IMG/VR virus record: IMGVR_UViG_3300007276_000231
Coordinates: 1-27,850 of that record
Source of the DNA: a virus
Direction: 5' to 3' (one strand)
Length of the DNA: 27,850 nucleotides
Shown: piece after piece, positions 17,044-27,850 of the stretch
Layout: each line of letters begins with the position of its first letter
How positions within the stretch are numbered: the stretch's first letter is position 1
The notes under the pieces: generated by a model
Databases searched by the model: none
What the model was told of the DNA's origin: nothing
Seen by the model: the letters and a program-made list of their open reading frames with translations, nothing else
Made by a program: the position numbers and the translations under genes

Positions 17044-17643
17044 CTACCTCGCCCGCAAGACGCAGGCACGCGCTTTTTCGCATTGTGCCTCGTCTATATC
17101 CACGCCGATTGCCTTTGCGCCCAACGCCTCCGCCACAGCCGGGATTGTTCCCTGCCCGCAAAACGGGTCAACAATTTCATCTGATGCCTTCATAGCCCAT
17201 TCAACTGCAACCCTTGCGGCCAAGATGCCTGTGCCGTTTGGATACAAGACATTGCCGCGCCTGATTGTGTCGGGCGTTGCTGTCCCCGGCTTTCCGTTAA
17301 ACGCTAACAGGTGCGAAAACCCCGGCCTGTGTATATCAACCGCCCCGACATCGCGGCGCAGTGCTATTTTATGCCAAGCAAGCGATGCGCCCCCTGATGC
17401 CTCGAATATGGCTTTGGGCTTTGACCAAGTTTCGCCGCCGTGCTTTCTGTCTGTGACATAAAACACAACTGGCCCGCCTGATGCTTTGAAGCAAAGGCGG
17501 GCGGCGTTGATGAACCATTCCCGCCAATCGGCAAGAGGCAAACCGATTTCCTCTGCGTCAGGCGGGCTTGTGACGATTGCGCCGCAAGTGTTTTGCTGCA
17601 TCCAATCAATCGCGTCAGCGCAGATGATTTCCTTATGCGGCAT
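17044..17643 (-). CDS. DNA methyltransferase, beta-type motif order (N4-cytosine or N6-adenine)
   Basis: A 199-aa protein from the ATG at 17643 (ATG at 17655 or TTG at 17688 are alternatives). A G-run (GGGGGG) lies 4 nt before 17643. Catalytic motif IV appears first as TSPPDAE (residues 25-31), an SPPD variant of the usual SPPY/DPPY. The AdoMet-binding motif I appears near the end as VDPFCGQGT (158-166), followed by GVDIDEAQCEKARA. This order is the beta class of amino-methyltransferases. It is small, with a short target-recognition region. It overlaps the upstream methyltransferase by 11 nt and lies 2 nt before the small terminase start, so modification and packaging genes are co-expressed. 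Target base and site are unknown. Confidence 0.82.
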   Translation of the reverse strand: MPHKEIICADAIDWMQQNTCGAIVTSPPDAEEIGLPLADWREWFINAARLCFKASGGPVVFYVTDRKHGGETWSKPKAIFEASGGASLAWHKIALRRDVGAVDIHRPGFSHLLAFNGKPGTATPDTIRRGNVLYPNGTGILAARVAVEWAMKASDEIVDPFCGQGTIPAVAEALGAKAIGVDIDEAQCEKARACVLRAR

Positions 17644-18529
17644 CAAACCCCCCATCGTCGCTTCCGCCTTCTGGCATTGCAAATTCAACGTGGCCGCACG
17701 CTTCCGTGGCTTTCTTGCCGTCGCCCTTTACGAACACCAAAACATTCTGGTGCGTCTTGCCTAGCTTGCGGCCCGCGTCGAATTGCCTGCCTGCCCTGAT
17801 CGGCAAAGAACCGACAGCCGTGACCAAAATTGCCTCGTTATAGTAATTCAGCCCAGCGGCTTTGAACGCCTCGACGGTATCGCCCACAAAATTGTAATAG
17901 TTGCCCTTCTTGTCGCGCACTTCGCCAACCACAAAGCAGGCAAAGCGGTTGTCTTTTAGCTGTGCGCAGGCTTTTGCAATGATGTCAAAATAGGCTGGCT
18001 TGAATTCTGCATAGGAAAGCGTTGAAAGGTCATCGGGGTCATCGCTGTAAACTTCAAGGTCAGCATAAGGCGGGCAACTAAAAACAAAGTCGGCTTCAAC
18101 GTCGCCGCAAACGTCAGGGATTTTGCGGCTGTCGGCGCAATGCCATATCGGCGGGTTTTCGGGGCATAGGTCCGCGCCCTGAATGCGATTGGCTTCAACC
18201 TGTTCCTGTCGCAATTCCACGCCGACATATTTGCGGCCTAGCTTTGACGCAACAACGCCGCGCACTGAACCGCCTGCAAAGGGGTCAAGCACTACGCCGT
18301 CAGGCGGGCTGAACCAGCTATAAGCCAATTCGCACAGAACGGGGTCAAAGATTGACGTGCCAGATGCAACCGCATCATCGCCATCCGAGCAACCGCCAGA
18401 AAGCCCCTTGTCACGCATCGAATCCGTTGTGCCGACCGTCTTAATAGGTGCGCCCATCTTTGCCCCCCCCTCTTTGCCTTCGCCGCGCATTAGGTCTTGG
18501 CCGAATGTGGCCGCTTTACGTTTAGCCAT
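17633..18529 (-). CDS. DNA methyltransferase (amino-MTase, AdoMet motif before SCPPY)
   Basis: A 298-aa protein with motif I VVLDPFAGGSVRG (residues 79-91), the acidic end of the next strand VGVELRQEQ, and catalytic motif IV FSCPPYADLE (150-159). These identify an N6-adenine or N4-cytosine methyltransferase with motif I preceding motif IV, as in alpha or gamma classes. The C-terminal half (SLPIRAGRQFDAGRKLGKTH, then QNVLVFVKGDGKK) is the usual end of such enzymes. The ATG overlaps the ParB-like gene stop (TAATG). Residues 20-23 are encoded over a run of eight G, and an in-frame ATG at codon 25 follows it. In many phages a ParB domain and this type of methylase are one polypeptide; here they are separate but coupled. 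Confidence 0.88.
   Translation of the reverse strand: MAKRKAATFGQDLMRGEGKEGGAKMGAPIKTVGTTDSMRDKGLSGGCSDGDDAVASGTSIFDPVLCELAYSWFSPPDGVVLDPFAGGSVRGVVASKLGRKYVGVELRQEQVEANRIQGADLCPENPPIWHCADSRKIPDVCGDVEADFVFSCPPYADLEVYSDDPDDLSTLSYAEFKPAYFDIIAKACAQLKDNRFACFVVGEVRDKKGNYYNFVGDTVEAFKAAGLNYYNEAILVTAVGSLPIRAGRQFDAGRKLGKTHQNVLVFVKGDGKKATEACGHVEFAMPEGGSDDGGFDAA
18463..18470 (-). repeat. G8 homopolymer inside the methyltransferase reading frame
   Basis: The minus strand has eight consecutive G within codons 20-23 of the methyltransferase gene (plus strand: eight C). It is the longest G/C mononucleotide run I noticed in the window. Runs of this length in methylase genes are classic slippage sites, and an in-frame ATG at codon 25 lies just downstream. 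Confidence 0.85.
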
Positions 18530-19257
18530 TATGAACTCCGCCCAATCAGCCCATCGGCAATTAGTCTTTCCCTCGCTTGTGGAGTTGAAAACTTCTTGCC
18601 TTCCCTTTTTTCTAGCGCCCTTTTTTGCGCATAAAAGTCCATATTGCCTGTGGTTTCAGGATGTCCCAAAGCGTTTTCCCCACGCCCTAATTCGGACGCA
18701 ATCCCCAAAGCAAGCCAAGCCCGCTTGCGGTCCTGCCACCAGCCCTCGCGGGCGTTCAATACGCTAAAAGGCGGGATGCCAAAGCGGTCAGCAAGCGAAC
18801 CCGCGCCACCAGCACCGTCGCCGTCGCCCATTTCTGGCTCATCAAACAAATCACCCAACTCGCCCAAATCAAAGCCCGTCAGCGTCAAATCGAAATTCAA
18901 GTCGCCAAGATCTTTGAACTCGACTTTTAGCATGTCCAAGTCCCAGCCCGCGTTCATCGCCAGCTTGTTATCGGCAATGATGTAGGCCCGCTTTTGCGCG
19001 TCGGTCCATCCGTGCGCGGTCATGGTTGGCACATCGTCCAAGCCCAACTTTTGCGCGGCAAGCAATCGCCCGTGGCCTGCAATGATGCCGCCGTCAGGGT
19101 CTATGAGGATTGGTGTGGTGAAGCCCCATTCTTTGATTGATGCGGCGATTTGGCCGACTTGTTCATCAGAGTGGGTGCGGCTGTTTTTGGCGTAGGGGAT
19201 TAGGTCAGCGACCTTGCGGCGGGCCACGCTATCGGCGGGCCATTCTTGTTTTGTCAT
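18529..19257 (-). CDS. ParB-like N-terminal domain protein, partner of DNA methylase
   Basis: A 242-aa protein from the ATG at 19257. An in-frame ATG at 19347 exists, but a near-consensus promoter (19309-19337) lies inside that extension, so I prefer the shorter form. Residues about 14-85 are a ParB/Sulfiredoxin-type domain: KVADLIPYAKNSRTHSDEQV, SIKEWGFTTPILID, and the nucleotide-binding GGIIAGHGRLLAA. IIADNKLAMNAGWD and an acidic Gly-rich linker follow. The C-terminal DRFGIPPFSVLNAREGWWQD and ELGRGE phrase is, to my memory, commonly found in ParB-methylase fusion proteins. It is first in the late operon and overlaps the methylase gene as TAATG. It probably acts with the methylase on DNA; a partition role is unlikely because no ParA is present. 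Confidence 0.85.
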   Translation of the reverse strand: MTKQEWPADSVARRKVADLIPYAKNSRTHSDEQVGQIAASIKEWGFTTPILIDPDGGIIAGHGRLLAAQKLGLDDVPTMTAHGWTDAQKRAYIIADNKLAMNAGWDLDMLKVEFKDLGDLNFDLTLTGFDLGELGDLFDEPEMGDGDGAGGAGSLADRFGIPPFSVLNAREGWWQDRKRAWLALGIASELGRGENALGHPETTGNMDFYAQKRALEKREGKKFSTPQARERLIADGLIGRSS

Positions 19258-19308: not shown

Positions 19309-19337
19309 AGAATACATGCGCAGTGATGCGCGGTCAA
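19309..19337 (-). promoter_or_regulatory. Candidate sigma70-type promoter of the leftward late operon
   Basis: On the minus strand TTGACC (19337-19332) and TATTCT (19314-19309) are separated by exactly 17 nt. Transcription would start near 19302, giving a leader of about 45 nt before the ATG at 19257. The spacer carries the word GCGCAT twice, possibly an operator. This placement argues for the shorter ParB-like protein. Confidence 0.65.
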
Positions 19338-19349
19338 TCAATCGCATTT

Positions 19350-19383
19350 AGGTGTTGCATATCCCGTTTGCCCGTTGTAAAAG
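19350..19383 (+). promoter_or_regulatory. Early promoter A with the repeated GTGTTGCATATCCC element
   Basis: AGGTGTTGCATATCCCGT (19350-19367) contains TTGCAT as a -35-like box, 17 nt before TAAAAG (19378-19383). A CCAACCAAAGGAA leader follows before the ATG at 19417. The same element recurs at 22749 and 27599 in the same position relative to gene blocks. It lies between divergent transcription units and is the likely start of the rightward genes. Confidence 0.65.
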
Positions 19384-19416
19384 ATTACCAAGAAAACCAA
19401 CCAAAGGAACGAAACG

Positions 19417-20007
19417 ATGAAAATCCTAGTCGCTTGCGAATACTCTGGCACGGTGCGCGATGCATTCATTGCGCGGGGGCATGACGCCATATCTTGCGAC
19501 CTGCTGCCGACTGACAAAGACGGCCCTCATCATCAAGGCGACGTTTATGACATGCTTAATCAGCCGTGGGATTTAATCATAGCCCACCCGCCATGCACGG
19601 CGTTGACCGTGGCAGGCAACAGCACATACGGCGAAGGCCAACCCAAATATGCCGAGCGGCTTGCGTCGGTTGAATGGACCGTTGCGCTGTGGAACGCGAT
19701 GAAAGCCGCATCGCCGCGCGTCTGCATGGAAAACCCTGTCGGCGTCTTGCGCAGGCTTGGCAACATGCACGCCCCGCAGTTTGTGCAGCCGTATCAGTTT
19801 GGGCATATGGAACAGAAGAAAACTGGCCTGTTCCTTCACGGCCTGCCGCCGCTTGTCGAGACCAACAACGTCTTTGACGAAATGATGAAGCTTCCAAAGA
19901 ACGTGCGCGAGCGGTTGCACTACCTGCCGCCATCGCCTGATAGGTGGAAAGTGCGCAGCACGACTTATCAAGGCATTGCTGACGCTATGGCGGAGCAGTG
20001 GACTTAA
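19417..20007 (+). CDS. C5-cytosine DNA methyltransferase-like protein (short phage form)
   Basis: A 196-aa protein starting MKILVACEYSGTVRDAFIARG, the form of the Rossmann first motif found in a phage family annotated as DNA cytosine methyltransferase. The PPC motif (AHPPCTALTVAGN, catalytic C60) and the ENP motif (MENPVGVL, E105) are present and correctly ordered. At under 200 residues it is about half the length of a classic C5 enzyme and lacks an obvious large target-recognition domain. It may modify with little sequence specificity, or act on nucleotides or another substrate; this is open. It is the first gene after early promoter A, with AAAGGAA upstream of the ATG. Early timing would fit anti-restriction. 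Confidence 0.78.
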   Translation: MKILVACEYSGTVRDAFIARGHDAISCDLLPTDKDGPHHQGDVYDMLNQPWDLIIAHPPCTALTVAGNSTYGEGQPKYAERLASVEWTVALWNAMKAASPRVCMENPVGVLRRLGNMHAPQFVQPYQFGHMEQKKTGLFLHGLPPLVETNNVFDEMMKLPKNVRERLHYLPPSPDRWKVRSTTYQGIADAMAEQWT

Positions 20008-20049
20008 CCAACGGGGATTTACCCCCACCAACCCAGAAGGAAAGAACCG

Positions 20050-20316
20050 ATGAAACTCGAAAGCCTATCAATCGCCCCGAAGCAAACCTACTCCGCCGCC
20101 GGGCCAAAAAACCCATACATTGCAACGCTGCGTGTCAGCTACAATGAGAACACAATGCAAGTGACGCTAGGACACGAAACATGCGTGCGCATTCTCGCCC
20201 TTGCTGGCGACGAAATCGCGCAGGCCGCGCAAATCCAAATTCAGGATTTTGTCAGAACCGCGATTGCAGTCAATGAAATGCCTCTGATTGAAGGGGATGC
20301 AAAGCAAAGCGAATAA
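20050..20316 (+). CDS. Hypothetical protein, 88 aa
   Basis: An 88-aa protein with an AAGGAAAG ribosome site about 6 nt before the ATG. It begins MKLESLSIAPKQTYSAAG, then KNPYIATLRVSYNENTMQ, a strand-rich pattern, followed by a helix (CVRILALAGDEIAQAAQIQI) and an acidic C-terminus. No catalytic motif or cysteine cluster is visible and I do not recognise the family. It shares the early operon with the C5 methyltransferase-like gene (42-nt gap containing a small GGGG-ATTTA-CCCC hairpin at 20013-20025) and lies upstream of the VRR-NUC nuclease gene. Confidence 0.8.
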   Translation: MKLESLSIAPKQTYSAAGPKNPYIATLRVSYNENTMQVTLGHETCVRILALAGDEIAQAAQIQIQDFVRTAIAVNEMPLIEGDAKQSE

Positions 20317-20319
20317 TCG

Positions 20320-20388
20320 TGTGGGGCGTGGCTGCGGCTCTTTGGGCAACTGACCAGATCAACACTAAACGGTTGAAATCGCCCCACA
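20320..20388 (+). ncRNA. Candidate structured RNA element in the gap before the VRR-NUC gene
   Basis: TGTGGGGCG (20320-20328) is perfectly complementary to CGCCCCACA (20380-20388), enclosing 51 nt. Inside, TCAAC and GTTGA can form a further small stem. This fills most of the roughly 150-nt gap between 20316 and 20475. There is no T-run after it, so a simple terminator is unlikely. A structured leader, a regulatory element or a small RNA are possible; no known riboswitch was recognised. Confidence 0.4.
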
Positions 20389-20420
20389 AAACTTGATACC
20401 AAATGGAATGGAGAGACACA

Positions 20421-20456
20421 ATGACAAAAGAAAGATGCTTGGATGCCGTGGCCTGA
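20421..20456 (+). CDS. Possible 11-aa leader peptide
   Basis: ATG at 20421 is preceded by a good ribosome site (TGGAGAGACACA) and reads MTKERCLDAVA before TGA. A second 11-codon frame at 20443-20478 (MPWPEPYEAGK) ends in an ATGA overlap with the VRR-NUC gene at 20475. Together they may be two leader peptides, or the remains of one small gene broken by a frameshift. Short length makes both tentative. Confidence 0.35.
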   Translation: MTKERCLDAVA

Positions 20457-20474
20457 ACCATACGAGGCGGGCAA

Positions 20475-20840
20475 ATGAAACTAACCGAGGACCAAATACA
20501 AGCCAGCATCGTTCAGTTTTGGGCGGTGCAAGCACCTGATGCCATCGTTCATCATAGCCGCAACGAAGGCTCGCGCGGTGGCCGGGCTGGCATGATTGAC
20601 GGGGCGCGGGGGAAACGGCTTGGCGTGTGCAAAGGCTACCCCGATTTGATTATCCACTGGCGCATCGCGACGTTCTTCATCGAAGTCAAACGCGAGGGCG
20701 CATATCTGGACAAGACGCAAAAGGCGCTTCATGCGATATTGCAGACGCACGGCCTGCGCGTCTTTGTCTGCCGCTCGGTTGCTGATGCGCAGGAAGTCTA
20801 TGACGAGATGAAAGTTTACACAGCGCGGGCTTCGGTATAA
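20475..20840 (+). CDS. VRR-NUC domain nuclease
   Basis: A 121-aa protein that is essentially one VRR-NUC domain, a PD-(D/E)XK-type nuclease fold. The key residues are visible: an early Glu in HHSRNEGSRGG, the Asp in KGYPDLIIHW, and the E-x-K pair in FFIEVKREGAYLD, followed by the helix QKALHAILQTHGLRVFVCRS. Stand-alone VRR-NUC proteins of phages are thought to cut branched or structured DNA in replication or recombination, or to act as Holliday-junction-type nucleases. A possible 11-codon upstream frame overlaps its ATG. It precedes the DUF1376 replication gene and is followed closely by two hairpins. Confidence 0.88.
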   Translation: MKLTEDQIQASIVQFWAVQAPDAIVHHSRNEGSRGGRAGMIDGARGKRLGVCKGYPDLIIHWRIATFFIEVKREGAYLDKTQKALHAILQTHGLRVFVCRSVADAQEVYDEMKVYTARASV

Positions 20841-20847
20841 AAGAAAC

Positions 20848-20904
20848 AGGCGGGGAGCGTGTGGTGCGCTCAACCCGCCTAAACAACCCGCGAGCAGTCG
20901 GGTT
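20848..20904 (+). terminator. Two consecutive hairpins after the VRR-NUC gene
   Basis: The first stem pairs 20848-20854 with 20874-20880 (AGGCGGG with CCCGCCT) and 20855-20859 with 20867-20871 (GAGCG with CGCTC), a 12-bp stem with an AA bulge and a 7-nt loop. The second pairs AACCCG (20885-20890) with CGGGTT (20899-20904) around 8 nt, followed by TAAATC. The first starts 8 nt after the stop codon. The T-run is poor, so attenuation rather than full termination is likely. Confidence 0.5.
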
Positions 20905-20930
20905 TAAATCAGCGAAGAAAGGTTTCGCCA

Positions 20931-20996
20931 ATGTCTAAAGTTTTACCAGCAACTCACGCTGCGCACAAGCACAAGATGCGCAGGTGTTGCATATGA
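20931..20996 (+). CDS. Possible 21-aa coupled leader frame
   Basis: ATG at 20931, with AAAGG 9 nt upstream, opens a 21-codon frame (MSKVLPATHAAHKHKMRRCC plus I) ending in a TGA that overlaps the next ATG as ATGA. The coupling and ribosome site suggest it is translated and delivers ribosomes to the DUF1376 gene. The product is basic with two adjacent Cys; any function of the peptide itself is unknown. Confidence 0.5.
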   Translation: MSKVLPATHAAHKHKMRRCCI

Positions 20997-21781
20997 GCCT
21001 GCCATATTTCCCTATGTATCCCACAGATTTTGAAGCCGACACGTCCCACCTGACGCTTGCCGAAGATGGCGCATATAATCGCCTCTTGCGCCTCATGTGG
21101 ATGACGCCGGGCTGTTCATTGCCAGATGATGCAGATTGGATAAGACGGCGCATGAGGTGCCAATCAGACGCAGATTTTGAAACCGTGATGACAGTCGTTG
21201 GCGAATTTTTCACGCGAAAATCTGGCCGCATTATCAGTCCTAGGTTAGCTAAGGAACACCAGAAAACAGACCTAGCACATCGAAAAAGAGTTGAAGCAGG
21301 TTCAATGGGGGGTAAGGCTAAGGCCGCGAAATCTAACAATAAAAGCTCTAGCAATGCTAAAGCAATGCTCTACCAACCAGAACCAGAACCAGAACCATAT
21401 AAAAGAGAAGCTAAAGCTTCTATAAAATCAGGCGACAACGATGCTGAAATCATCCAAATTCTAAGCATTGCAGTCTCGCCAAATATCGCAGCGGCTTTTG
21501 TTCAGCACCGCAAGGAGTTGAAAAAGCCAATGACAGCAAACGCGGCAAGCGCGATGATAAAAAAACTTGAAGGCCACCCCGCGCCCGACGATGTTTTGAC
21601 AGACAGCATCGCAAACGGATGGCAGGGCATTTTCCCTGAGAAAACGAAAGGCAAAACCAATGGACACTCAAAGCAAACTTCCCGCGCAGACTTCGACACA
21701 GCGCATCGCGAATACACCCGCCGCGTTGGCAAAGGTGAAATCGACTTCGGACCTGACCCAAGCAATCCATTCGGCGGGTGA
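20993..21781 (+). CDS. DUF1376-containing replication protein
   Basis: A 262-aa protein from the ATG at 20993, which overlaps the stop of the small upstream frame and has AGGTG 6 nt before it. Residues 1-100 are a clear DUF1376 (YdaU-like) domain: YFPMYPTDFEADTSHLTLAE, DGAYNRLLRLMWMTPGCSLP, and DDADWIRRRMR. A low-complexity linker follows (AKSNNKSSSNAKAM and QPEPEPEPYKRE, the latter from a repeated AACCAG hexamer at 21375-21397). A C-terminal helical region with PMTANAASAMIKKLEGH comes next. DUF1376 proteins occur at the replication-initiator or primosome position of many phages and are thought to bind DNA; the function is inferred from context. Confidence 0.85.
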   Translation: MSLPYFPMYPTDFEADTSHLTLAEDGAYNRLLRLMWMTPGCSLPDDADWIRRRMRCQSDADFETVMTVVGEFFTRKSGRIISPRLAKEHQKTDLAHRKRVEAGSMGGKAKAAKSNNKSSSNAKAMLYQPEPEPEPYKREAKASIKSGDNDAEIIQILSIAVSPNIAAAFVQHRKELKKPMTANAASAMIKKLEGHPAPDDVLTDSIANGWQGIFPEKTKGKTNGHSKQTSRADFDTAHREYTRRVGKGEIDFGPDPSNPFGG

Positions 21782-22304
21782 TGATGCTTACACGCTGGAC
21801 CGCACGCGCACTTGCCTGAAATTGTATTACGACCCGGATATGGGCTTTGAAGAACGTGCCGACATGATGGACAGCTATCGCAAGGCGCTGTCAGCGCGTC
21901 CCAAGTGGGCAGTCGCCAAGGCTTTCGATGAATGGGAACGGACAGGGACGCGCAGGCCATCACCAGCCGATTTGAATATCCTTGCAGGTAGGGCGATGCA
22001 GGTTTTGACCGACGAACTGGCAAGGCGCGAAAGGCTGGCGGGCGAACCAAAACAAACCATTGCAGAGCGCACCGACGATGAGCGGGCGGTCGGGTTGCTG
22101 GCGATGCAAAAAGCAGGCTTTACCCCGAAGCGGTTGCAAGCTGTGAGGCGCAAGCGCATGGCGAAAAGCGAGGCGGAATTGTATCAACAGACGGCTTTGG
22201 AACGTGAACCGCATTGGGCAGATGTTGCCGCGCCTGACAGTCCCGAAATGAAAGCGCTGCGCAAGGCCCGCGCAGGCAACCCGCTGATGTTTCCAAACGA
22301 ATGA
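21660..22304 (+). CDS. Hypothetical replication-module protein downstream of DUF1376 gene
   Basis: A 214-aa protein from the ATG at 21660, which lies 122 nt inside the DUF1376 gene and has GAAAGG about 8 nt upstream; GTG at 21735 is an alternative start. The conserved-looking part begins near residue 38 (DDAYTLDRTRTCLKLYYDPD) and continues MDSYRKALSARPKWAVAKAF and RPSPADLNILAGRA, a compact helical region. It then becomes a charged helix (DELARRERLAGEPKQTIAER). No ATPase or nuclease motif is visible. Its place next to the DUF1376 gene suggests a partner in replication initiation, such as a helicase loader or DNA-binding co-factor. It ends in an ATGA overlap with the HNH gene. Confidence 0.75.
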   Translation: MDTQSKLPAQTSTQRIANTPAALAKVKSTSDLTQAIHSAGDDAYTLDRTRTCLKLYYDPDMGFEERADMMDSYRKALSARPKWAVAKAFDEWERTGTRRPSPADLNILAGRAMQVLTDELARRERLAGEPKQTIAERTDDERAVGLLAMQKAGFTPKRLQAVRRKRMAKSEAELYQQTALEREPHWADVAAPDSPEMKALRKARAGNPLMFPNE

Positions 22305-22750
22305 AGCGCACCGAAATCAAACGCAAAACCGAGTTGAAGCGCGGCGCTGAAATCATCCCGTTCAATAAAGCAACCAAGCAGGCGGCGAAATTCAAGCGGA
22401 GGCCCGCCAAACAGCCCGCTACAAGCGCAACTGCCGCCGCCGAGCATATGGCATGGGTCAGAACATGCGAATGCCACGTGTGCGGCAGATTTGGGCCGAG
22501 CGAGGCGCATCATGTATTCCACGACAGGCACAGCAACCGACGCCCTGCGGACTGGCTGACAATCCCGCTTTGCCAAGAATGCCACCGCGAAGGGCGGCAC
22601 GCCATTCACAAGGAAAAGCGGACGTGGCGATTTACGCACGGCCCTGATTATGGCTATGTTCCGCTTTACCTGCAATCCAGCCCCGTAGATGGCGCACTGA
22701 CTGACGGGCTGGATGCGCTGGCGCGGTATTTGGAGCGCGACGAAAAATAG
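22301..22750 (+). CDS. HNH-type nuclease with zinc site (DUF968/Ref-like)
   Basis: A 149-aa protein with a very basic N-terminus (MKRTEIKRKTELKRG, then KFKRRPAKQ), probably for DNA binding. It is followed by a zinc-binding HNH core: CHVCG (C58, C61), SEAHHVFHDRH (H70, H71), PLCQECH (C91, C94, H95) and HAIHKEKRTW (H100, H103). The pattern resembles the DUF968/Ref group of phage recombination nucleases. Its start overlaps the upstream stop as ATGA. Its TAG stop forms part of the next promoter element. The likely role is in recombination or DNA processing; a terminase-associated HNH role is less likely because it is not beside the terminase genes. Confidence 0.85.
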   Translation: MKRTEIKRKTELKRGAEIIPFNKATKQAAKFKRRPAKQPATSATAAAEHMAWVRTCECHVCGRFGPSEAHHVFHDRHSNRRPADWLTIPLCQECHREGRHAIHKEKRTWRFTHGPDYGYVPLYLQSSPVDGALTDGLDALARYLERDEK

Positions 22751-22782
22751 GTGTTGCATATCCCGTCTGCGTTTTATAAAGT
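22749..22782 (+). promoter_or_regulatory. Early promoter B with the repeated GTGTTGCATATCCC element
   Basis: AGGTGTTGCATATCCCGT (22749-22766) is identical over 18 nt to the element at promoter A. TTGCAT is followed after 17 nt by TAAAGT (22777-22782). The leader then has TCACTAAGGCAACCAACCAA and CGGAGA before the ATG at 22817. The element starts within the stop codon of the HNH gene. Confidence 0.65.
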
Positions 22783-22816
22783 CTCACTAAGGCAACCAAC
22801 CAACGGAGATAACCAA

Positions 22817-23107
22817 ATGAGAAATTCCATCATCACAATCGACATGCAGGGCGCGGCATTCCGCATCACGCAGGAGAATTTCAACGGCGGCGATTTGGTC
22901 AACAAATCCACGCTGACAACGCAATCCCGCAACGGCACGTTTGCCCACGCGCCGCAGGTTTTATCGCTGGTCAGCGCATTCATTGCAGCCCGCCCCGTGC
23001 CGCATACGCTTATCGTGACGGCAGAGGCAGAAGCCAATCTTGCTGTTGATGATGTCGAGGAAATCATGCGCAGAGTTGGCGCGACACGCAAGCAGGTGAC
23101 AGCATGA
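22817..23107 (+). CDS. Hypothetical protein, 96 aa
   Basis: A 96-aa protein starting at the ATG at 22817 with CGGAGA upstream. A longer frame from GTG at 22751 would run through the promoter and is rejected. It begins MRNSIITIDMQGAAFRITQE and has a central TFAHAPQVLSLVSAFIAARP and an acidic VDDVEEIMRRVG end, a mixed alpha/beta pattern. No catalytic motif is seen and I do not recognise it. It is first in the unit driven by promoter B and overlaps the next gene as ATGA. Confidence 0.8.
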   Translation: MRNSIITIDMQGAAFRITQENFNGGDLVNKSTLTTQSRNGTFAHAPQVLSLVSAFIAARPVPHTLIVTAEAEANLAVDDVEEIMRRVGATRKQVTA

Positions 23108-23394
23108 GCCAGCGCATCACAATAAAGCACCTCGAGGCCAAAGCGCGGACGCTCAACAAAATCGCGGGCCAACCGCTTGAGCCTTACACGCGCACCGAGG
23201 GCGGCGACTTAGTTGCCTGCCCCGGCAATTATCACATCAGCGGCGCTTATGGCGGATACCAGCTTGAGCGCATGTCAACCGAAGGCGGCGGCGTGACAAT
23301 CCCCGTTAGCACGGGCCACATTCCAGCGCGTCAATGCGCCCTTGTGATTGATGCTTTTATTCTGGGCTACAGCGCAGCGAAGGAGAACGCATGA
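23104..23394 (+). CDS. Hypothetical protein, 96 aa
   Basis: A 96-aa protein overlapping the previous stop as ATGA and the next start as ATGA. It begins MSQRITIKHLEAKARTLNKI, a helical stretch, then Gly-rich strands (PGNYHISGAYGGYQLERMST), and a C-terminal helix CALVIDAFILGYSAAKENA. This layout resembles small phage proteins of unknown function with a helix-sheet-helix fold. No metal-binding or catalytic residues stand out. It belongs to the promoter B unit. Confidence 0.8.
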   Translation: MSQRITIKHLEAKARTLNKIAGQPLEPYTRTEGGDLVACPGNYHISGAYGGYQLERMSTEGGGVTIPVSTGHIPARQCALVIDAFILGYSAAKENA

Positions 23395-23549
23395 CCCAAG
23401 ACGAGCGCAACGAAATCCAGCAGGTGATTGATTTGGCAATGGACGAAATCGAAACCCTGTCCAACCCGTCCAGGCGGCTGAACCGCGTCGGGCAATTGGT
23501 TGAAATCATAACAGCGAACAAACTCAAACTAGCGAAGGAAACAGAATGA
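23391..23549 (+). CDS. Hypothetical helical protein, 52 aa
   Basis: A 52-aa frame with ATG at 23391 and TGA at 23549. Both ends overlap neighbours as ATGA, and an AGGAGA ribosome site precedes it. It is predicted mainly helical (MTQDERNEIQQVIDLAMDEI, then RRLNRVGQLVEIITANKLKL) and ends AKETE. The KETE ending and the start of the next gene form a junction sequence that recurs elsewhere in the window. Function is unknown; the heptad-like spacing would allow dimerisation. Confidence 0.75.
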   Translation: MTQDERNEIQQVIDLAMDEIETLSNPSRRLNRVGQLVEIITANKLKLAKETE

Positions 23550-23740
23550 ACATTGGGAAATGGGAAAACCCAGAACTGTATCAAGCCGCAATTATTTTTC
23601 AGAAAGGCGGCAACTCAAAAGGCGTCTTTTCGATAATCAAAAAAATGACACCAAACGACCAATGCAGATTTGCCCTTATACTTATGAAAGCCCTAGAAAT
23701 AGAAAAAGAGAGAGAAAATGACCCAAGAAGAACTAGATAA
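23546..23740 (+). CDS. Small paralogue 1 of a tandem pair, 64 aa
   Basis: A 64-aa protein starting in an ATGA overlap. It shares with the following gene a gap-free pattern at a constant offset of eight residues: GKW (4-6), N-P (8-9), A-A (14-15), K-M-T (33-35), D38 and R41. This indicates duplication and divergence. The encoding DNA is more A/T-rich than the flanking genes. It ends in basic residues (DPRRTR) where it overlaps the next gene by 23 nt. I do not recognise a known family; the fold is probably helical. Confidence 0.75.
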   Translation: MNIGKWENPELYQAAIIFQKGGNSKGVFSIIKKMTPNDQCRFALILMKALEIEKERENDPRRTR

Positions 23741-23960
23741 AATCATCAAAGGCAAATGGGACAACCCATCATTGTTTTACGCGGCGGAAGCAACAATGAT
23801 GATGGGCCAAGCGCATTTGACAAAAAAGATTACCAACAAAATGACCTATGCCGACAGGGTTAGGTACTTCGATAAATTGTTCCGCGAAATGACAAGATCT
23901 GACCAATCTTACGTGCTCAAAGTAATGGAAAAAGACATAGAGAAAAAGGAAACAAAATGA
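23718..23960 (+). CDS. Small paralogue 2 of a tandem pair, 80 aa
   Basis: An 80-aa protein with a GAGAGA ribosome site inside the end of the previous gene. Residues 12-49 align with paralogue 1 (GKW at 12-14, N-P 16-17, A-A 22-23, K-M-T 41-43, D46, R49). The N-terminal extension MTQEELDKIIK and the longer C-terminal helix (SDQSYVLKVMEKDIEKKETK) are its own. It is A/T-rich, like paralogue 1. It overlaps the next gene as ATGA within a repeated junction sequence. Function is unknown. A helical, possibly self-associating pair or heterodimer with paralogue 1 is possible. Confidence 0.75.
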   Translation: MTQEELDKIIKGKWDNPSLFYAAEATMMMGQAHLTKKITNKMTYADRVRYFDKLFREMTRSDQSYVLKVMEKDIEKKETK

Positions 23961-24640
23961 ACATCGGACACAACAACCCGCCAGCAAAATTTGAACTGCG
24001 CGAAAAGAAAGCGGGCCTACTGCCCGAAATCGAAAACTGGCTAGACGGCCAGCGCGTCGAAAATGAGGACCAGATGGCGGCGGTTGATGCGCTGACAGGC
24101 GAAGTTAAAGCACTGGCAAAGGACTTTGAAGCAGAAAAAGAAACCGAATACCGCCCGCACAAGCTGGCCTGCGATGCTGTTGTCGCTGAATACAAGCCCG
24201 ACCTGAAAGACCTAGACGATTGGGTCAAGGGGCTGAACGCCATCAACGGCGCATACAAAATCAAACTGGCGGCGGCAAAGAAAGCCGAGGCCGACGAAGC
24301 CCGCCGGGAAGCGCAAGAGGCCGCACGGCTGGCACAGATAGCGCAAGAACAAGCCGACTATGGCAACCTTGAAGAACGCCGCCACGCCGACGAACAAGCC
24401 GCCGCAGCGCGTGAAATCGAGCGCAACGCGCAGGCGATGGCAAAAGACAAACCCAAGGGCCTGCGCACGACCAAGCGCACCCGCGTCACCGACTACAAGG
24501 CGCTCATCAATCACATTGCCCGCGAGGACAAAGACGCGGTTGCAGCCTTTTGCGATATTTGGGCGGCGAACTACTACCGCGAAAACAAGGAAATCATCGA
24601 CGGTTGCTTTGATTTGGTTGCAGAGACAAAAGCCGTTTGA
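23957..24640 (+). CDS. Coiled-coil phage protein beginning MNIGHNNPP, upstream of SSB-like gene
   Basis: A 227-aa protein. The MNIGHNNPP start is a familiar opening of a phage family that sits beside single-strand DNA binding or annealing genes. A long charged coiled coil covers residues about 90-165 (AAAKKAEADEARREAQEAAR, then LAQIAQEQADYG). The C-terminal domain (RTTKRTRVTDYKALINHIA, then WAANYYRENKEIIDGC) is a small conserved-looking module. It starts in an ATGA overlap with paralogue 2. The likely role is in DNA replication or recombination together with the downstream SSB-like protein; this is by association only. Confidence 0.78.
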   Translation: MNIGHNNPPAKFELREKKAGLLPEIENWLDGQRVENEDQMAAVDALTGEVKALAKDFEAEKETEYRPHKLACDAVVAEYKPDLKDLDDWVKGLNAINGAYKIKLAAAKKAEADEARREAQEAARLAQIAQEQADYGNLEERRHADEQAAAAREIERNAQAMAKDKPKGLRTTKRTRVTDYKALINHIAREDKDAVAAFCDIWAANYYRENKEIIDGCFDLVAETKAV

Positions 24641-24664
24641 CCTCGCCGCAATTTAGTATAAGAT
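24637..24664 (+). promoter_or_regulatory. Candidate promoter upstream of the SSB-like gene
   Basis: TTGACC (24637-24642) is followed after 16 nt by TAAGAT (24659-24664), with TATAAG overlapping at 24657. It lies at the end of the previous gene, about 45 nt before the SSB-like start, in the only sizeable gap of that region. It lacks the GTGTTGCATATCCC element, so it would belong to a different promoter class. Confidence 0.45.
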
Positions 24665-24707
24665 CACAATGCGGAAACGCTAAACCCCAAAACAAGGAAA
24701 CTGAAAA

Positions 24708-25340
24708 ATGAAGATACCAGAACCCACAGCAGGCGGCGACTTTGAGCCAACGCCAGAAGGACAATTTACCGCCATATGTGCGCGGTTTGTTGACCTTGGA
24801 ACGCAGACAGTCGATAGCATCCACGGCATCAAGCATCAGCATAAGGTGATGATTGGCTGGGAAATCCCAGAAGTGCGCGTGACTGACCAAGACGGCAAAG
24901 ACGCGCCAGCACTGCACCAAGAACGCTATACTTGGTCAATGCACGAAAAGGCAAATCTGCGCAAAGTGCTTGAGGCATGGCGCGGCGTCAAATTTAAGGA
25001 AGCCGACTTCAACACCTTCGACACGAAAACGCTGATTGGTGTGCCTTGCTTGATGCAGATTGTCCATAATGTCGGCAACAACGGCAAGACTTACGCCAAC
25101 ATTCAAAGCGTCATGCGCTCGCCTGTCAAAAAGGATGATTGGCCCAAGCTGGAAGGCGTGCCGATTTACCTATCGCTGGCCGACTTCAATCAAGCCGAAT
25201 ATGACAAGCTGTCGGACTACTGGCAGAACCTTATCGCTGAAAGCCCAGAGTTCAAAACGATGAAGGGCATCAAGTCAGGCAGCGATGAAAACGGCGGCGA
25301 CGACTGGCGCAAAGATATGGAAGATGAAATTCCATTCTAA
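24708..25340 (+). CDS. Phage single-stranded DNA-binding protein-like
   Basis: A 210-aa protein whose C-terminus GDDWRKDMEDEIPF is an acidic tail ending in Ile-Pro-Phe, the classic partner-binding tail of bacterial and phage SSBs. The body (HQHKVMIGWEIPEVRVTDQD, then QERYTWSMHEKANLRKVLEA and WRGVKF, and TLIGVPCLMQIVHNVGNNGK with TYANIQSV) has the strand pattern of an OB-fold family common in phage replication modules. A ribosome site is modest (AAGGAAA). It would coat single-stranded DNA during replication and recombination, and fits beside the coiled-coil protein upstream and the nucleases nearby. Confidence 0.85.
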   Translation: MKIPEPTAGGDFEPTPEGQFTAICARFVDLGTQTVDSIHGIKHQHKVMIGWEIPEVRVTDQDGKDAPALHQERYTWSMHEKANLRKVLEAWRGVKFKEADFNTFDTKTLIGVPCLMQIVHNVGNNGKTYANIQSVMRSPVKKDDWPKLEGVPIYLSLADFNQAEYDKLSDYWQNLIAESPEFKTMKGIKSGSDENGGDDWRKDMEDEIPF

Positions 25341-25348
25341 ACAACCCG

Positions 25349-25370
25349 GCGGGCGGCTTCGGTTGCCCGC
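25349..25370 (+). other. 22-nt cUUCGg hairpin 8 nt after the SSB-like stop codon
   Basis: GCGGGCGGC pairs with GTTGCCCGC around TTCG, nine consecutive pairs with two G-U wobbles and the exceptionally stable C(UUCG)G closure. The wobbles exist only in the plus-strand RNA, so it is a structure of the coding transcript. No T-run follows. It lies between the SSB-like gene and a 75-aa gene and may protect the SSB mRNA 3' end or reduce downstream expression. Confidence 0.6.
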
Positions 25371-25396
25371 TTCAATCAACCAACGGAGAATGAAAA

Positions 25397-25624
25397 ATGG
25401 CATGCAATAAAATCACAACACCAGCAGAGCATAGAGCGCTTTTGCTTTCAGCAATGGAAGCAGTGTGCGAGGGCAGATTGAATGTATCACAGGCAAACGC
25501 GCTTGTCGGGCTATCTGGCGAACTGCACAAAAGTATCCGCCAAGAATGGGACATGCGGACATATGCCGCCGAAAACTTGTCACTAAAGCACGGCCAAGTC
25601 GTGAAAATGCTAGGGGCGGACTGA
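25397..25624 (+). CDS. Hypothetical helical protein, 75 aa
   Basis: A 75-aa, mainly helical protein with CGGAG upstream of the ATG. It begins MACNKITTPAEHRALLLSAM and contains the stretch EGRLNVSQANALVGLSGELH and KSIRQEWDMRTYAAENLSLK, which resembles a helix-turn-helix or small bundle, and ends GQVVKMLGAD. The NVSQANALVGLSGELHKSI phrase is common to many small phage proteins of unknown role. It overlaps the next gene as TGATG. DNA binding is possible but not established. Confidence 0.75.
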   Translation: MACNKITTPAEHRALLLSAMEAVCEGRLNVSQANALVGLSGELHKSIRQEWDMRTYAAENLSLKHGQVVKMLGAD

Positions 25625-26031
25625 TGGCAAAAGCCAACCCAAATTCGCCATTCTATTGGGAGTGGGGCCGAAAGTATGAGGCCGAATACCAATTAGTTGA
25701 AAGGTGCGGTGTAATGCTTGGTAAAATCATGGGCAAGCGCAATGTCAACTTTATAAAAGTTCACCTAAATCGGTCAACAGCTGAAAGGTTTTCGGCTACT
25801 GCGCACCATTCATCCAGAGAGTGCTTGATTGAAGAATTTAAAGGCGGGTTGCGACACGGGAATTGGGCCGCAAGACATGGTTTCATTTATAGGTATTTTG
25901 TCTCTGATGATTTAGTTTGCGTCTTTAAGATTGAGGACAACGACGCCAACATTTACAAAATTAAAGTTTTGCGCGAACTCGCGGGCGCATATTGCGACAC
26001 AGAGCCATCCCGCGTTCAAATGATGATGTAA
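25624..26031 (+). CDS. Hypothetical protein, 135 aa, A/T-rich gene
   Basis: A 135-aa protein from the ATG at 25624, which overlaps the previous stop as TGATG; a longer upstream frame lies inside the previous gene and is rejected. Its DNA is visibly more A/T-rich than its neighbours. The sequence (NSPFYWEWGRKYEAEYQLVE, later RHGFIYRYFVSDDLVCVFKI) is aromatic-rich and mixed alpha/beta. I do not recognise it. No catalytic cluster is evident. Composition suggests acquisition separate from the flanking genes. Confidence 0.75.
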   Translation: MAKANPNSPFYWEWGRKYEAEYQLVERCGVMLGKIMGKRNVNFIKVHLNRSTAERFSATAHHSSRECLIEEFKGGLRHGNWAARHGFIYRYFVSDDLVCVFKIEDNDANIYKIKVLRELAGAYCDTEPSRVQMMM

Positions 26032-26065
26032 CCGCAAATTGATTTAACCAAAGGAGAATGAAACC

Positions 26066-26275
26066 ATGTCACAGAACAACGTAATTCTAAGCCACCTGCG
26101 CACCCGCCCCAACATCACGCCGATTGAGGCGCTGAATAAATACGGGTGCATGAGGCTGGCGGCTCGCATCAGGGATTTGCGCGACGGCGGCAATCACATC
26201 GAAATGACGCTGATACCGACAAACAGCGGCAAATGGATTGGCAGCTATTCACTGGTGAAGGAAGCGGGGCAATGA
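26066..26275 (+). CDS. Small helix-turn-helix protein (phage HTH family)
   Basis: A 69-aa protein with AAAGGAG before the ATG. The sequence SQNNVILSHLRTRPNITPIE, then ALNKYGCMRLAARIRDLRDG, and NHIEMTLI matches a common small phage winged-helix family (I associate it with Pfam HTH_39), in which LxxxGxxRLAxRIxDLR is the recognition part. It probably binds DNA, for regulation or replication. Its stop overlaps the next start as ATGA. The target cannot be inferred, although the repeated promoter elements in this window are candidate sites. Confidence 0.82.
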   Translation: MSQNNVILSHLRTRPNITPIEALNKYGCMRLAARIRDLRDGGNHIEMTLIPTNSGKWIGSYSLVKEAGQ

Positions 26276-26622
26276 CGGTTGAACTATTCACCAACACGGG
26301 CGGCATCAGCCGGGAAGCCGCTGACCGCGCCGTGCAATGGCTCGTTGACCACGCCGAGGAAATCGCCAGACGGAAAGCCATGATGGTTTATCATGAGGAC
26401 CGCTTGCGCGTTGTTAAATCAACCGCGATGGCGCTGTCTGACGAAAAGTCCATCGCGGCCAAAGAGGCGGAAGCCTATCGCAGCGGCGTCTATGAAACCG
26501 CAGTCGAAGAACGCAGGAACGCCGTGTTTAACTATGAGCGGCTGATGAATAGCAAAATGGCATGTATTGCAACAAAGGAACTATTCCAGACCTTTGAAGC
26601 ATCATTGAGGCACATCGTATGA
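26272..26622 (+). CDS. Hypothetical coiled-coil protein, 116 aa
   Basis: A 116-aa protein from the ATG at 26272 (ATGA overlap); an in-frame extension upstream lies inside the HTH gene and is rejected. It is nearly all helical: DRAVQWLVDHAEEIARRKAM, then VYHEDRLRVVKSTAMAL, and AAKEAEAYRSGVYETAVEER. It ends in KELFQTFEASLRHIV. The repeated Ala/Glu pattern with KEAEAYR resembles a phage protein family with no known role, found beside replication and recombination genes. It overlaps the next start as ATGA. Confidence 0.78.
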   Translation: MTVELFTNTGGISREAADRAVQWLVDHAEEIARRKAMMVYHEDRLRVVKSTAMALSDEKSIAAKEAEAYRSGVYETAVEERRNAVFNYERLMNSKMACIATKELFQTFEASLRHIV

Positions 26623-26825
26623 CCAACATTATGAACCGACTGAAAGAAGCAGAAAGCCTTTATGAAAGGGCAGGGCTTCACGGGACTAATGGCGCTGCGC
26701 TGATGTATGATGCCCAAGCGCACATCAAAAAGCTGACGACTGCGCTTAAAAAAATAAAATCCCACGCGGGCGATGATGCCTATCACACGGCAATCGCTGC
26801 CGAAGCATTGAAGGAAACAGAATGA
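26619..26825 (+). CDS. Hypothetical helical protein, 68 aa
   Basis: A 68-aa, helical protein with ATGA overlaps at both ends. It begins MTNIMNRLKEAESLYERAGL, then GAALMYDAQAHIKKLTTALK, and ends AEALKETE. The last codons and the next start (GAAGGAAACAGAATGAACA, 26810-26828) repeat exactly the junction at 23534-23552. No function is recognised. Its charged helices would allow dimerisation or binding to a partner. Confidence 0.75.
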   Translation: MTNIMNRLKEAESLYERAGLHGTNGAALMYDAQAHIKKLTTALKKIKSHAGDDAYHTAIAAEALKETE

Positions 26826-27211
26826 ACAACGAACTAACATCGTGGATTTATGTAATCGGAGCATATGAAACGCTTAATTTTGTTAAAATTGGAGCTACCA
26901 CACATTTGCCTCACCATGGTCGATTACAACAGCTACAGACAGGAAGCCCGCATAAACTTCATGTTCATGGGTTTCACCCCGTGCAGACAGAAAAACTTCT
27001 CGCCGCTGAAAAGCGAACACACGCCAGACTTGAGGCTAATAAAATGGTTGGTGAGTGGTTCAATATAAGCCCGCGAAAAGCGCTACTTATCGTTAGAGAT
27101 GTCACCGAGCAATTTTATGGAAAGAAGTTGGCGAGATGCTCCAAAAAATTTGCGCCATATTCATACGCCGTGCATGGACCAACCGAGAAAGAAATGGAGA
27201 ACGCCGAATGA
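26822..27211 (+). CDS. GIY-YIG superfamily protein (T5orf172/MUG113-like)
   Basis: A 129-aa protein with the motif set of the T5orf172/MUG113 branch of the GIY-YIG fold: WIYVIGAY (8-15), FVKIGATT (20-27), GRLQQLQTGSPHKL (33-46, with the conserved Arg34), AEKRTHARLE (62-71, Glu63 and His67), and GEWFNI (77-82). The catalytic set looks complete, so nuclease activity is possible. The gene is clearly more A/T-rich than neighbours and is entered through a repeated junction sequence, suggesting a mobile or recently acquired gene. Homing or anti-competitor activity is conceivable; DNA repair is an alternative. It overlaps both neighbours as ATGA. Confidence 0.82.
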   Translation: MNNELTSWIYVIGAYETLNFVKIGATTHLPHHGRLQQLQTGSPHKLHVHGFHPVQTEKLLAAEKRTHARLEANKMVGEWFNISPRKALLIVRDVTEQFYGKKLARCSKKFAPYSYAVHGPTEKEMENAE

Positions 27212-27411
27212 CTGACATGGAAAAGATGCTCAAAGCGGTTGAAAAATACGCCGAGCGCAAAGGCTGGAAGCCATCCACCGTGCTGCAATACGCCGCCAAC
27301 GCGGGTTCCCGCTATGAGGCGCTGAAAGCAGGCGAGGTTGATATGACCAGCAAGGTGATGGCTCGCGTTTACGCCTACATCAAAGCTGACGGCAAGGACT
27401 TGAACCCCTGA
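27208..27411 (+). CDS. Small hypothetical, possibly HTH-type protein, 67 aa
   Basis: A 67-aa protein from the ATG at 27208 (ATGA overlap); the frame extends upstream into the GIY-YIG gene but that part is rejected. The sequence DMEKMLKAVEKYAERKGWKP, then STVLQYAANAGSRYEALKAG, and EVDMTSKVMARVYAYIKADG has the spacing of a short helix-turn-helix (helix, turn with KPSTVLQ, helix), similar to small phage regulators. DNA binding is inferred. The next gene starts in a TGATG overlap. Confidence 0.75.
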   Translation: MTDMEKMLKAVEKYAERKGWKPSTVLQYAANAGSRYEALKAGEVDMTSKVMARVYAYIKADGKDLNP

Positions 27412-27599
27412 TGCCTCGGTGTTTCCACGCAGGCTGCGCAAACAACGCGCCACACGGCCTTCGCTTGTCGGGGTTTAGGTCTGACTTGCCAGCGGACAAG
27501 CGAGGCTATCTGTGGCACTGCGAGGAACACCGGGCAGAAGCCGAACAGCGTTGGCAGGTTGCCGAGGCGAAGCGGTCGGGAAAACGAGTGGCAAAATAA
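27411..27599 (+). CDS. Small zinc-finger-like protein, 62 aa
   Basis: A 62-aa protein with Cys4, Cys9, and a WHCEEH group (with further His), suggesting a small zinc-binding knuckle. It begins MPRCFHAGCANNAPHGLRLS and ends in a basic helix (AEQRWQVAEAKRSGKRVAK). It overlaps the previous stop as TGATG and is followed immediately by promoter element C. Such proteins are common in phage genomes as metal-binding DNA or protein adaptors; the role here is unknown. Confidence 0.72.
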   Translation: MPRCFHAGCANNAPHGLRLSGFRSDLPADKRGYLWHCEEHRAEAEQRWQVAEAKRSGKRVAK

Positions 27600-27630
27600 G
27601 TGTTGCATATCCCCTGATTAGTAGTAATCT
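27599..27630 (+). promoter_or_regulatory. Early promoter C with the repeated GTGTTGCATATCCC element
   Basis: GTGTTGCATATCCC recurs at 27600-27613. TTGCAT (27603-27608) is followed after 16 nt by TAATCT (27625-27630). A leader with TCACTACGACAACCAACCAA and CAAGGAGA follows before the ATG at 27668, closely matching the leader of promoter B. It opens the gene block running off the right edge. Confidence 0.65.
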
Positions 27631-27667
27631 GTCACTACGACAACCAACCAACCAAGGAGAACGACCA

Positions 27668-27850
27668 ATGATTTATTTCCACGCAGTAATGCTCGACGAA
27701 TGCGGAATGGAATTTGGGGTAGGCATCAGCGCCAAAACCAAAGACGACGCCCGCGAAGCGCTGGCCGAAGCCTTCCCCGAAAATCGCGGCATCGTGCAGA
27801 TTGAAAGCACCGAGGACGCCGCCAAGCGCGAGCGGGCCATGTATGACCGA
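27668..27850 (+). CDS. Hypothetical protein, C-terminus cut by window edge
   Basis: An open frame from the ATG at 27668 to the right edge (61 codons, no stop). An AAGGAG ribosome site lies 9 nt upstream and promoter element C precedes it. It begins MIYFHAVMLDECGMEFGVGI, then SAKTKDDAREALAEAFPENR and GIVQIESTEDAAKR, an alternating strand-helix-strand pattern of a small alpha/beta fold. I do not recognise it. It is the first gene of a new unit whose remainder lies outside the window. Confidence 0.75.
   Translation, partial: MIYFHAVMLDECGMEFGVGISAKTKDDAREALAEAFPENRGIVQIESTEDAAKRERAMYDR

Follow-up and report, generated by a model that had tools for sequence, protein, structure and literature searches.

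Three copies of a promoter-like element ahead of rightward gene blocks in an environmental virus contig

Gene organization and the repeated element

The DNA analysed here (the window) is the entire IMG/VR virus record IMGVR_UViG_3300007276_000231, 27,850 bases long and probably a fragment, and its feature of interest is a repeated 14-nucleotide (nt) block, GTGTTGCATATCCC, that stands ahead of three rightward gene blocks. Leftward genes on the minus strand encode a tape-measure protein, a major head protein, a portal, a large terminase, methyltransferases and a ParB-like protein. Rightward genes from position 19417 on, on the plus strand, encode a methyltransferase, a VRR-NUC nuclease, a replication-type DUF1376 protein, an HNH protein, an exonuclease-like protein and many small proteins, a content that fits an early or replication region; the element-led blocks would accordingly be early, judged from gene content only. 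The DNA of the methyltransferase gene at 19417 is 76% identical to its counterpart in an Octadecabacter phage, and the host is therefore likely to be an alphaproteobacterium.

The block occurs as three exact copies in the 27.85-kb record (19352-19365, 22751-22764 and 27600-27613), all on the plus strand. With the preceding bases all three copies read TARGTGTTGCATATCCC, and the TAR ahead of the block is the stop codon of the preceding gene in copies 2 and 3. Identity between copies 1 and 2 spans 19 nt (TAGGTGTTGCATATCCCGT), one more than the 18 nt of the original prediction, which was also correct in giving the third element 14 nt in common at 27600-27613 (an exact copy) and in extending the identity well past a -35 hexamer (an invariant 14-nt block followed by a diverged spacer). 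The distance from the end of the block to the ATG is 51, 52 and 55 nt in copies 1, 2 and 3, respectively.

No other 14-mer has three copies in the window, and any three-copy 14-mer appeared in only 0.5% of order-3 and 2.5% of order-5 Markov simulations; a chance repeat is ruled out by this rarity and the three exact copies. No further exact copy is present elsewhere in the window, where the next best sites carry three mismatches. A symmetric operator was also ruled out, as the block has no conserved dyad in the three copies. The partial copy over the start codon of the DUF1376 gene is possibly due to chance. A tiny open reading frame (MSKVLPATHAAHKHKMRRCCI, 20932-20997, plus strand) has a stop codon that overlaps the start of this gene (ATGA), and its last codons hold AGGTGTTGCATAT. 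The coordinates of these and other features are given in Table 1.

Table 1. Elements, promoter-like sites, leaders and genes of the window
Feature	Coordinates	Strand	Remarks
Element 1, TAGGTGTTGCATATCCCGT	19349..19367	+	Invariant block 19352-19365; -35-like TTGCAT 19355-19360
Element 2, TAGGTGTTGCATATCCCGT	22748..22766	+	Its TAG ends the HNH/DUF968 gene
Element 3, TAAGTGTTGCATATCCC	27597..27613	+	Its TAA ends gene 27411-27599
Partial copy, AGGTGTTGCATAT	20982..20994	+	Spans start codon of DUF1376/replication gene; lacks a -10 box at promoter spacing
-10-like TAAAAG	19378..19383	+	17 nt past TTGCAT, element 1
-10-like TAAAGT	22777..22782	+	17 nt past TTGCAT, element 2
-10-like TAATCT	27625..27630	+	16 nt past TTGCAT, element 3
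Leader and ribosome site	19384..19416	+	A/C-rich, unstructured; before methyltransferase gene 19417
Leader and ribosome site	22783..22816	+	Unstructured; before gene 22817
Leader and ribosome site	27631..27668	+	Before gene 27669
Promoter-like site without element	24637..24664	+	TTGACC-16-TAAGAT; before gene 24708; consensus scan
Divergent leftward promoter-like site without element	19309..19337	-	TTGACC-17-TATTCT; toward ParB, methyltransferase and structural genes; consensus scan
Phage DNA methyltransferase (phrog_757)	19417..20007	+	First gene after element 1
HNH/DUF968 gene	22301-22750	+	Stop codon TAG is the start of element 2
Compact gene block after element 2	22817..27599	+	Includes exonuclease-like gene 23957, HTH_39 gene 26066 and T5orf172-domain gene 26822
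Candidate DNA-binding protein	26066..26275	+	Winged helix-turn-helix domain HTH_39 (Pfam)
67-residue all-helical protein, possibly XRE-type DNA-binding	27208..27411	+	Structure model, fold search
Gene ending in element 3	27411-27599	+	Stop codon TAA is the start of element 3
Gene 27669		+	Downstream of element 3; runs off contig end

On the minus strand, the ParB-like gene (18529-19257) and a DNA methyltransferase gene (17633-18529) are separate overlapping genes that match different parts of phrog_498, a family annotated as DNA methyltransferase that looks like a ParB-methyltransferase fusion. Further methyltransferase-like genes are a third at 17044-17688 and the fourth at 19417-20007. The plus-strand gene at 25397-25624, encoding a 75-residue protein of unknown family, has an 82% identical counterpart beside structural genes in contig L140 and is also found in L139; it is apparently a small mobile gene.

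Promoter anatomy and leaders

Within the block, the hexamer TTGCAT stands 17 nt ahead of TAAAAG in copy 1, 17 nt ahead of TAAAGT in copy 2 and 16 nt ahead of TAATCT in copy 3, in agreement with the predicted spacing of 16-17 nt. The start-site regions that follow these -10-like boxes are TTACCA, TCACTA and TCACTA. Conservation is uneven along the elements: the block is invariant in all copies (14/14), including the GTG before and the ATCCC after TTGCAT, and the -10 and start region of copies 2 and 3 is 82% identical over 28 nt, whereas the spacer is about 58% identical between copies 1 and 2 (roughly seven of the 12 bases after the block) and far less so in copy 3. An invariant block and a matching -10 and start region, separated by a free spacer, therefore resemble the two selected boxes of a promoter. 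The identification of the three elements as promoters is well supported by this anatomy, their activity being presumed, and the prediction of promoter-like elements at the starts of gene blocks holds at all three sites.

A scan with the Escherichia coli consensus did not list the three elements, which are weak as sigma-70 sites by that consensus. In a study of mapped transcription starts, alphaproteobacterial sigma-70 promoters were found mostly to lack a T at -7, and the TTG of the -35 was kept except in Actinobacteria and Betaproteobacteria (PMC8407463). All three elements have TTG at -35 and a -10-like box that starts with TA 16-17 nt downstream. As TTGCAT-17-TAAAAG fits the alphaproteobacterial sigma-70 habit, a special sigma factor is unneeded. 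The consensus scan did list two promoter-like sites without the block, one before gene 24708 and one divergent from element 1; therefore, only some promoter-like sites of the region carry it.

No RNA structure is predicted in the three leaders, and an Rfam search of the window gave no match. A leader rich in CAACCAACC and a ribosome site follow the element at all three sites, as predicted, but the leader sequence is not specific to it: a fourth copy of this leader sequence (CAACC) is found at 25373 without the element, and the leader therefore belongs to the ribosome-site context, outside the element. Another repeated ribosome-site and start context is the 19-nt junction GAAGGAAACAGAATGAACA, identical at 23534-23552 and 26810-26828 (plus strand), at the starts of genes 23546 and 26822.

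Occurrence of the element beyond the window

The element is absent from the relatives of three window genes: those of the terminase (80 loci, up to 81%), of gene 24708 (best viral relatives about 45-46%) and of methyltransferase 19417 (up to 90%). One of the closest terminase relatives with long flanks (L124, 80%) has an early region that differs from that of the window. Among 385 genomes of one class, the terminase has one match (43%) and gene 24708 has none.

The full 17-mer TARGTGTTGCATATCCC has 24 matches in 84,980 bacterial and archaeal genomes, scattered across unrelated phyla and nearly all in open coding frames. With at most one mismatch to the 14-mer, 130 of the 385 genomes have any match, mostly one or two each and never more than a few, and the exact 14-mer occurs three times among the matches listed for these genomes. 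Both scans contradict a host-wide regulon on the full element, and with it the suggestion that a host regulator or host sigma factor reads the whole element. As the element is unused across bacterial genomes, an additional reader, if there is one, is expected to be encoded by the phage; a host regulator that accepts a far looser site is possible. A literature search for TTGCATATCC returned nothing on phage promoters among the matches listed.

In scans of the viral collection, most of the listed matches to the exact 14-mer lie inside coding frames. The element followed by the CAACC leader has 56 matches in the collection, which resemble chance coding matches, and the element followed by a ribosome site and ATG leaves a single plausible promoter, in an unrelated phage contig (L054, 10206-10219, minus strand), where GTGTTGCATATCCC stands 17 nt ahead of TAGTGT and 42 nt ahead of an ATG. 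In the same contig, TATCCC is repeated 14 nt upstream of GTGTTGCATATCCC.

One unrelated family of viral contigs (IMG/VR loci L325-L404) has the exact 14-mer outside genes. The DNA polymerase A of this marine family matches those of pelagiphages HTVC023P and HTVC027P and phage DSL-LC04 at 48-56%. In 69 of the 80 loci (42 distinct sequences), GTRTTGCWTATCSC, a degenerate form of the block, occupies the -35 position, 16-18 nt ahead of TATAAT-like boxes, directly after the stop codon of a small zinc-ribbon-like gene. Here the block is within an inverted repeat, TATGSGAT-N12-ATCSCATA, of which the central pair is C-G, G-C or a C/C mismatch and the left arm overlaps coding sequence; the sites used for column counts were picked by a TATG.GA seed, so that conservation of the left arm partly reflects how the sites were chosen. 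The presence of the block at the same -35 register in unrelated phages supports, but does not prove, a shared reader; because the block has no symmetry in the window and is part of an inverted repeat in the polymerase-A family, a shared reader is doubtful. There is a small chance that GTGTTGCATATCCC represents an undescribed class of regulator sites overlapping the -35 in unrelated marine phages (three copies in the window phage, one copy in the polymerase-A phages, and L054), read by a small phage-encoded protein that would pass between phages.

The promoter of the polymerase-A family is followed by a leader of about 80 nt (for example, L373:6120-6300, L328:6303-6440 and L121), in which a first hairpin, a conserved CTCCGTAGT and a terminator-like hairpin (conserved TTGCCC loop, T-rich tail) precede a ribosome site and the start of a small gene. 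The first hairpin changes in sequence with its pairing apparently kept, and in the second, eight of the 12 predicted pairs have two-sided changes that preserve pairing. An Rfam search of this leader gave no match. It has the appearance of a conserved leader RNA containing an attenuator, or of a small RNA; this candidate is apparently undescribed and may be more novel than the element itself.

Proposed regulation, alternatives and known systems

The best explanation of the three elements, favoured with moderate confidence, is that host sigma-70 promoters overlap a site for a phage-encoded regulator. The host RNA polymerase with its main sigma factor would use TTGCAT as the -35 and TAAAAG, TAAAGT or TAATCT as the -10, and a single DNA-binding protein encoded by the phage would bind the invariant 14-bp block over the -35, acting either as a repressor by keeping sigma from its contacts or as an activator by docking at the -35. 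This second reader is proposed because sigma-70 leaves the invariant GTG and ATCCC around TTGCAT unexplained; its existence and the sign of its effect are putative. The blocks starting at 19417, 22817 and 27669 would be switched together, and the promoter before 24708 and the leftward promoter would be outside such control.

Two small proteins are candidate readers. The product of 26066, predicted to be a helix-turn-helix protein, does match HTH_39 (E-value 9e-13), and its structure model is poor. The model of the 27208 product has four helices at moderate confidence (mean predicted local distance difference test score, pLDDT, of 68), and its best fold matches are XRE-type regulators (SinR, HipB), weak and non-significant with E-values of 1.8 or worse. 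The similarity of protein 26272 to the C-terminal domain of T4 MotA is a Pfam match below the cutoff (E-value 0.04) and was set aside as noise. In T4, the MotA box is nearer to the -10 than the 16-17 nt of the present element.

Several points weigh against a phage-encoded reader. Neither the 26066 nor the 27208 product could be tied to the element, and the block has only three copies. An orthologous early region was sought in relatives and none was found in the collections searched. The window copies lack the inverted repeat of the polymerase-A family, none being preceded by its left arm, and the exact-word search that found this family could have succeeded partly by luck.

The main rival, less probable than the regulated promoters but to be taken seriously, is that ordinary sigma-70 promoters were duplicated within the genome, the extra bases being read by no protein. 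In favour of copying, the 60 nt that run from the block to the ribosome site are about 78% identical in copies 1 and 2, the copies are few, and a promoter without the block lies beside them. However, a recent duplication would retain the spacer and an old, unselected one would lose the block, whereas identity is 14/14 in the block and about 58% or less in the spacer; moreover, the block recurs at the -35 of unrelated phages.

A rather improbable special case of the favoured explanation, with the sign fixed as repression, is an operator system like the stoperators of L5-type mycobacteriophages, in which a prophage repressor binds directional sites of 13-14 bp within transcribed regions as well as at promoters. 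An asymmetric site oriented with transcription, located in short gaps by stop codons and overlapping the -35, is consistent with this, as is the partial fourth copy without a -10 box at 20982, but that copy is coding and differs in its last three bases, the full sites number three against more than 20 in L5 and are all promoter-like, and the search of window proteins, from a contig that is probably partial, revealed no recognisable repressor or integrase.

Reading of a long -35 by a non-standard sigma factor of the phage or host, as the original prediction had allowed, is very unlikely. Both hexamers are poor by the E. coli consensus, yet they fit alphaproteobacterial sigma-70 (PMC8407463), the host-genome scan revealed no regulon, and the window proteins searched from this partial contig include none recognised as sigma-like. 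A conserved short leader peptide MLHIP (GTG TTG CAT ATC CC) in place of a DNA signal can be practically dismissed, for although GTG directly follows TAR and the frame closes at the following gene's ATGA in copy 1 and continues into the gene in copy 2, the frame of copy 3 stops after five codons (GTG TTG CAT ATC CCC TGA), residues past MLHIP are unconserved, no wobble position varies in the block, and a -10-like box follows.

Should a phage protein read the block, the elements would join the small number of control circuits defined in environmental phages of alphaproteobacterial type, the 14-bp site would offer a means of finding the regulator, and the polymerase-A site would let the question of the regulator extend to a much larger phage group. 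Without a reader, the elements would still illustrate clearly how promoters are copied inside one phage genome.

Among known systems, sigma-70 promoters of the Rhodobacter and Caulobacter type likewise have TTG at -35, a spacer of 16-17 nt and a -10 often without T at -7 (PMC8407463), but identity in the window spans 14-17 bases around the -35, beyond what sigma-70 needs. In L5-type phages, the repressors recognise asymmetric 13-mers that point with transcription and lie at promoters and in short gaps between genes (PMC9283540); the operators and stoperators of these Cluster A mycobacteriophages resemble the present element as directional, asymmetric 13-14-bp sites in such positions and differ in sequence and in number (more than 20 against three full copies), and no repressor was recognised among the proteins searched here. 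The SAS/ESAS of Cluster K mycobacteriophages are also phage-specific repeats, of 13 bp, upstream of several genes of one genome and absent from the host (PMC3203893), but SAS coincides with the start of translation, in which it is presumed to have its role, whereas the block is 51-55 nt upstream, at the -35. Phages 7-11 and phiEco32 have short conserved repeats at several intergenic starts (PMC4331800) and, in contrast to the window as far as recognised, encode a sigma factor thought to read them. The post-polymerase promoter of the polymerase-A family (L325-L404) has GTRTTGCWTATCSC at the -35, directly after a stop codon, with a -10 16-18 nt on; it differs in having one copy per contig, an inverted repeat, a structured leader with a terminator-like hairpin and an unrelated genome around it. 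The three elements of the window are real, and repeated promoters of their kind are nothing unusual in phages.

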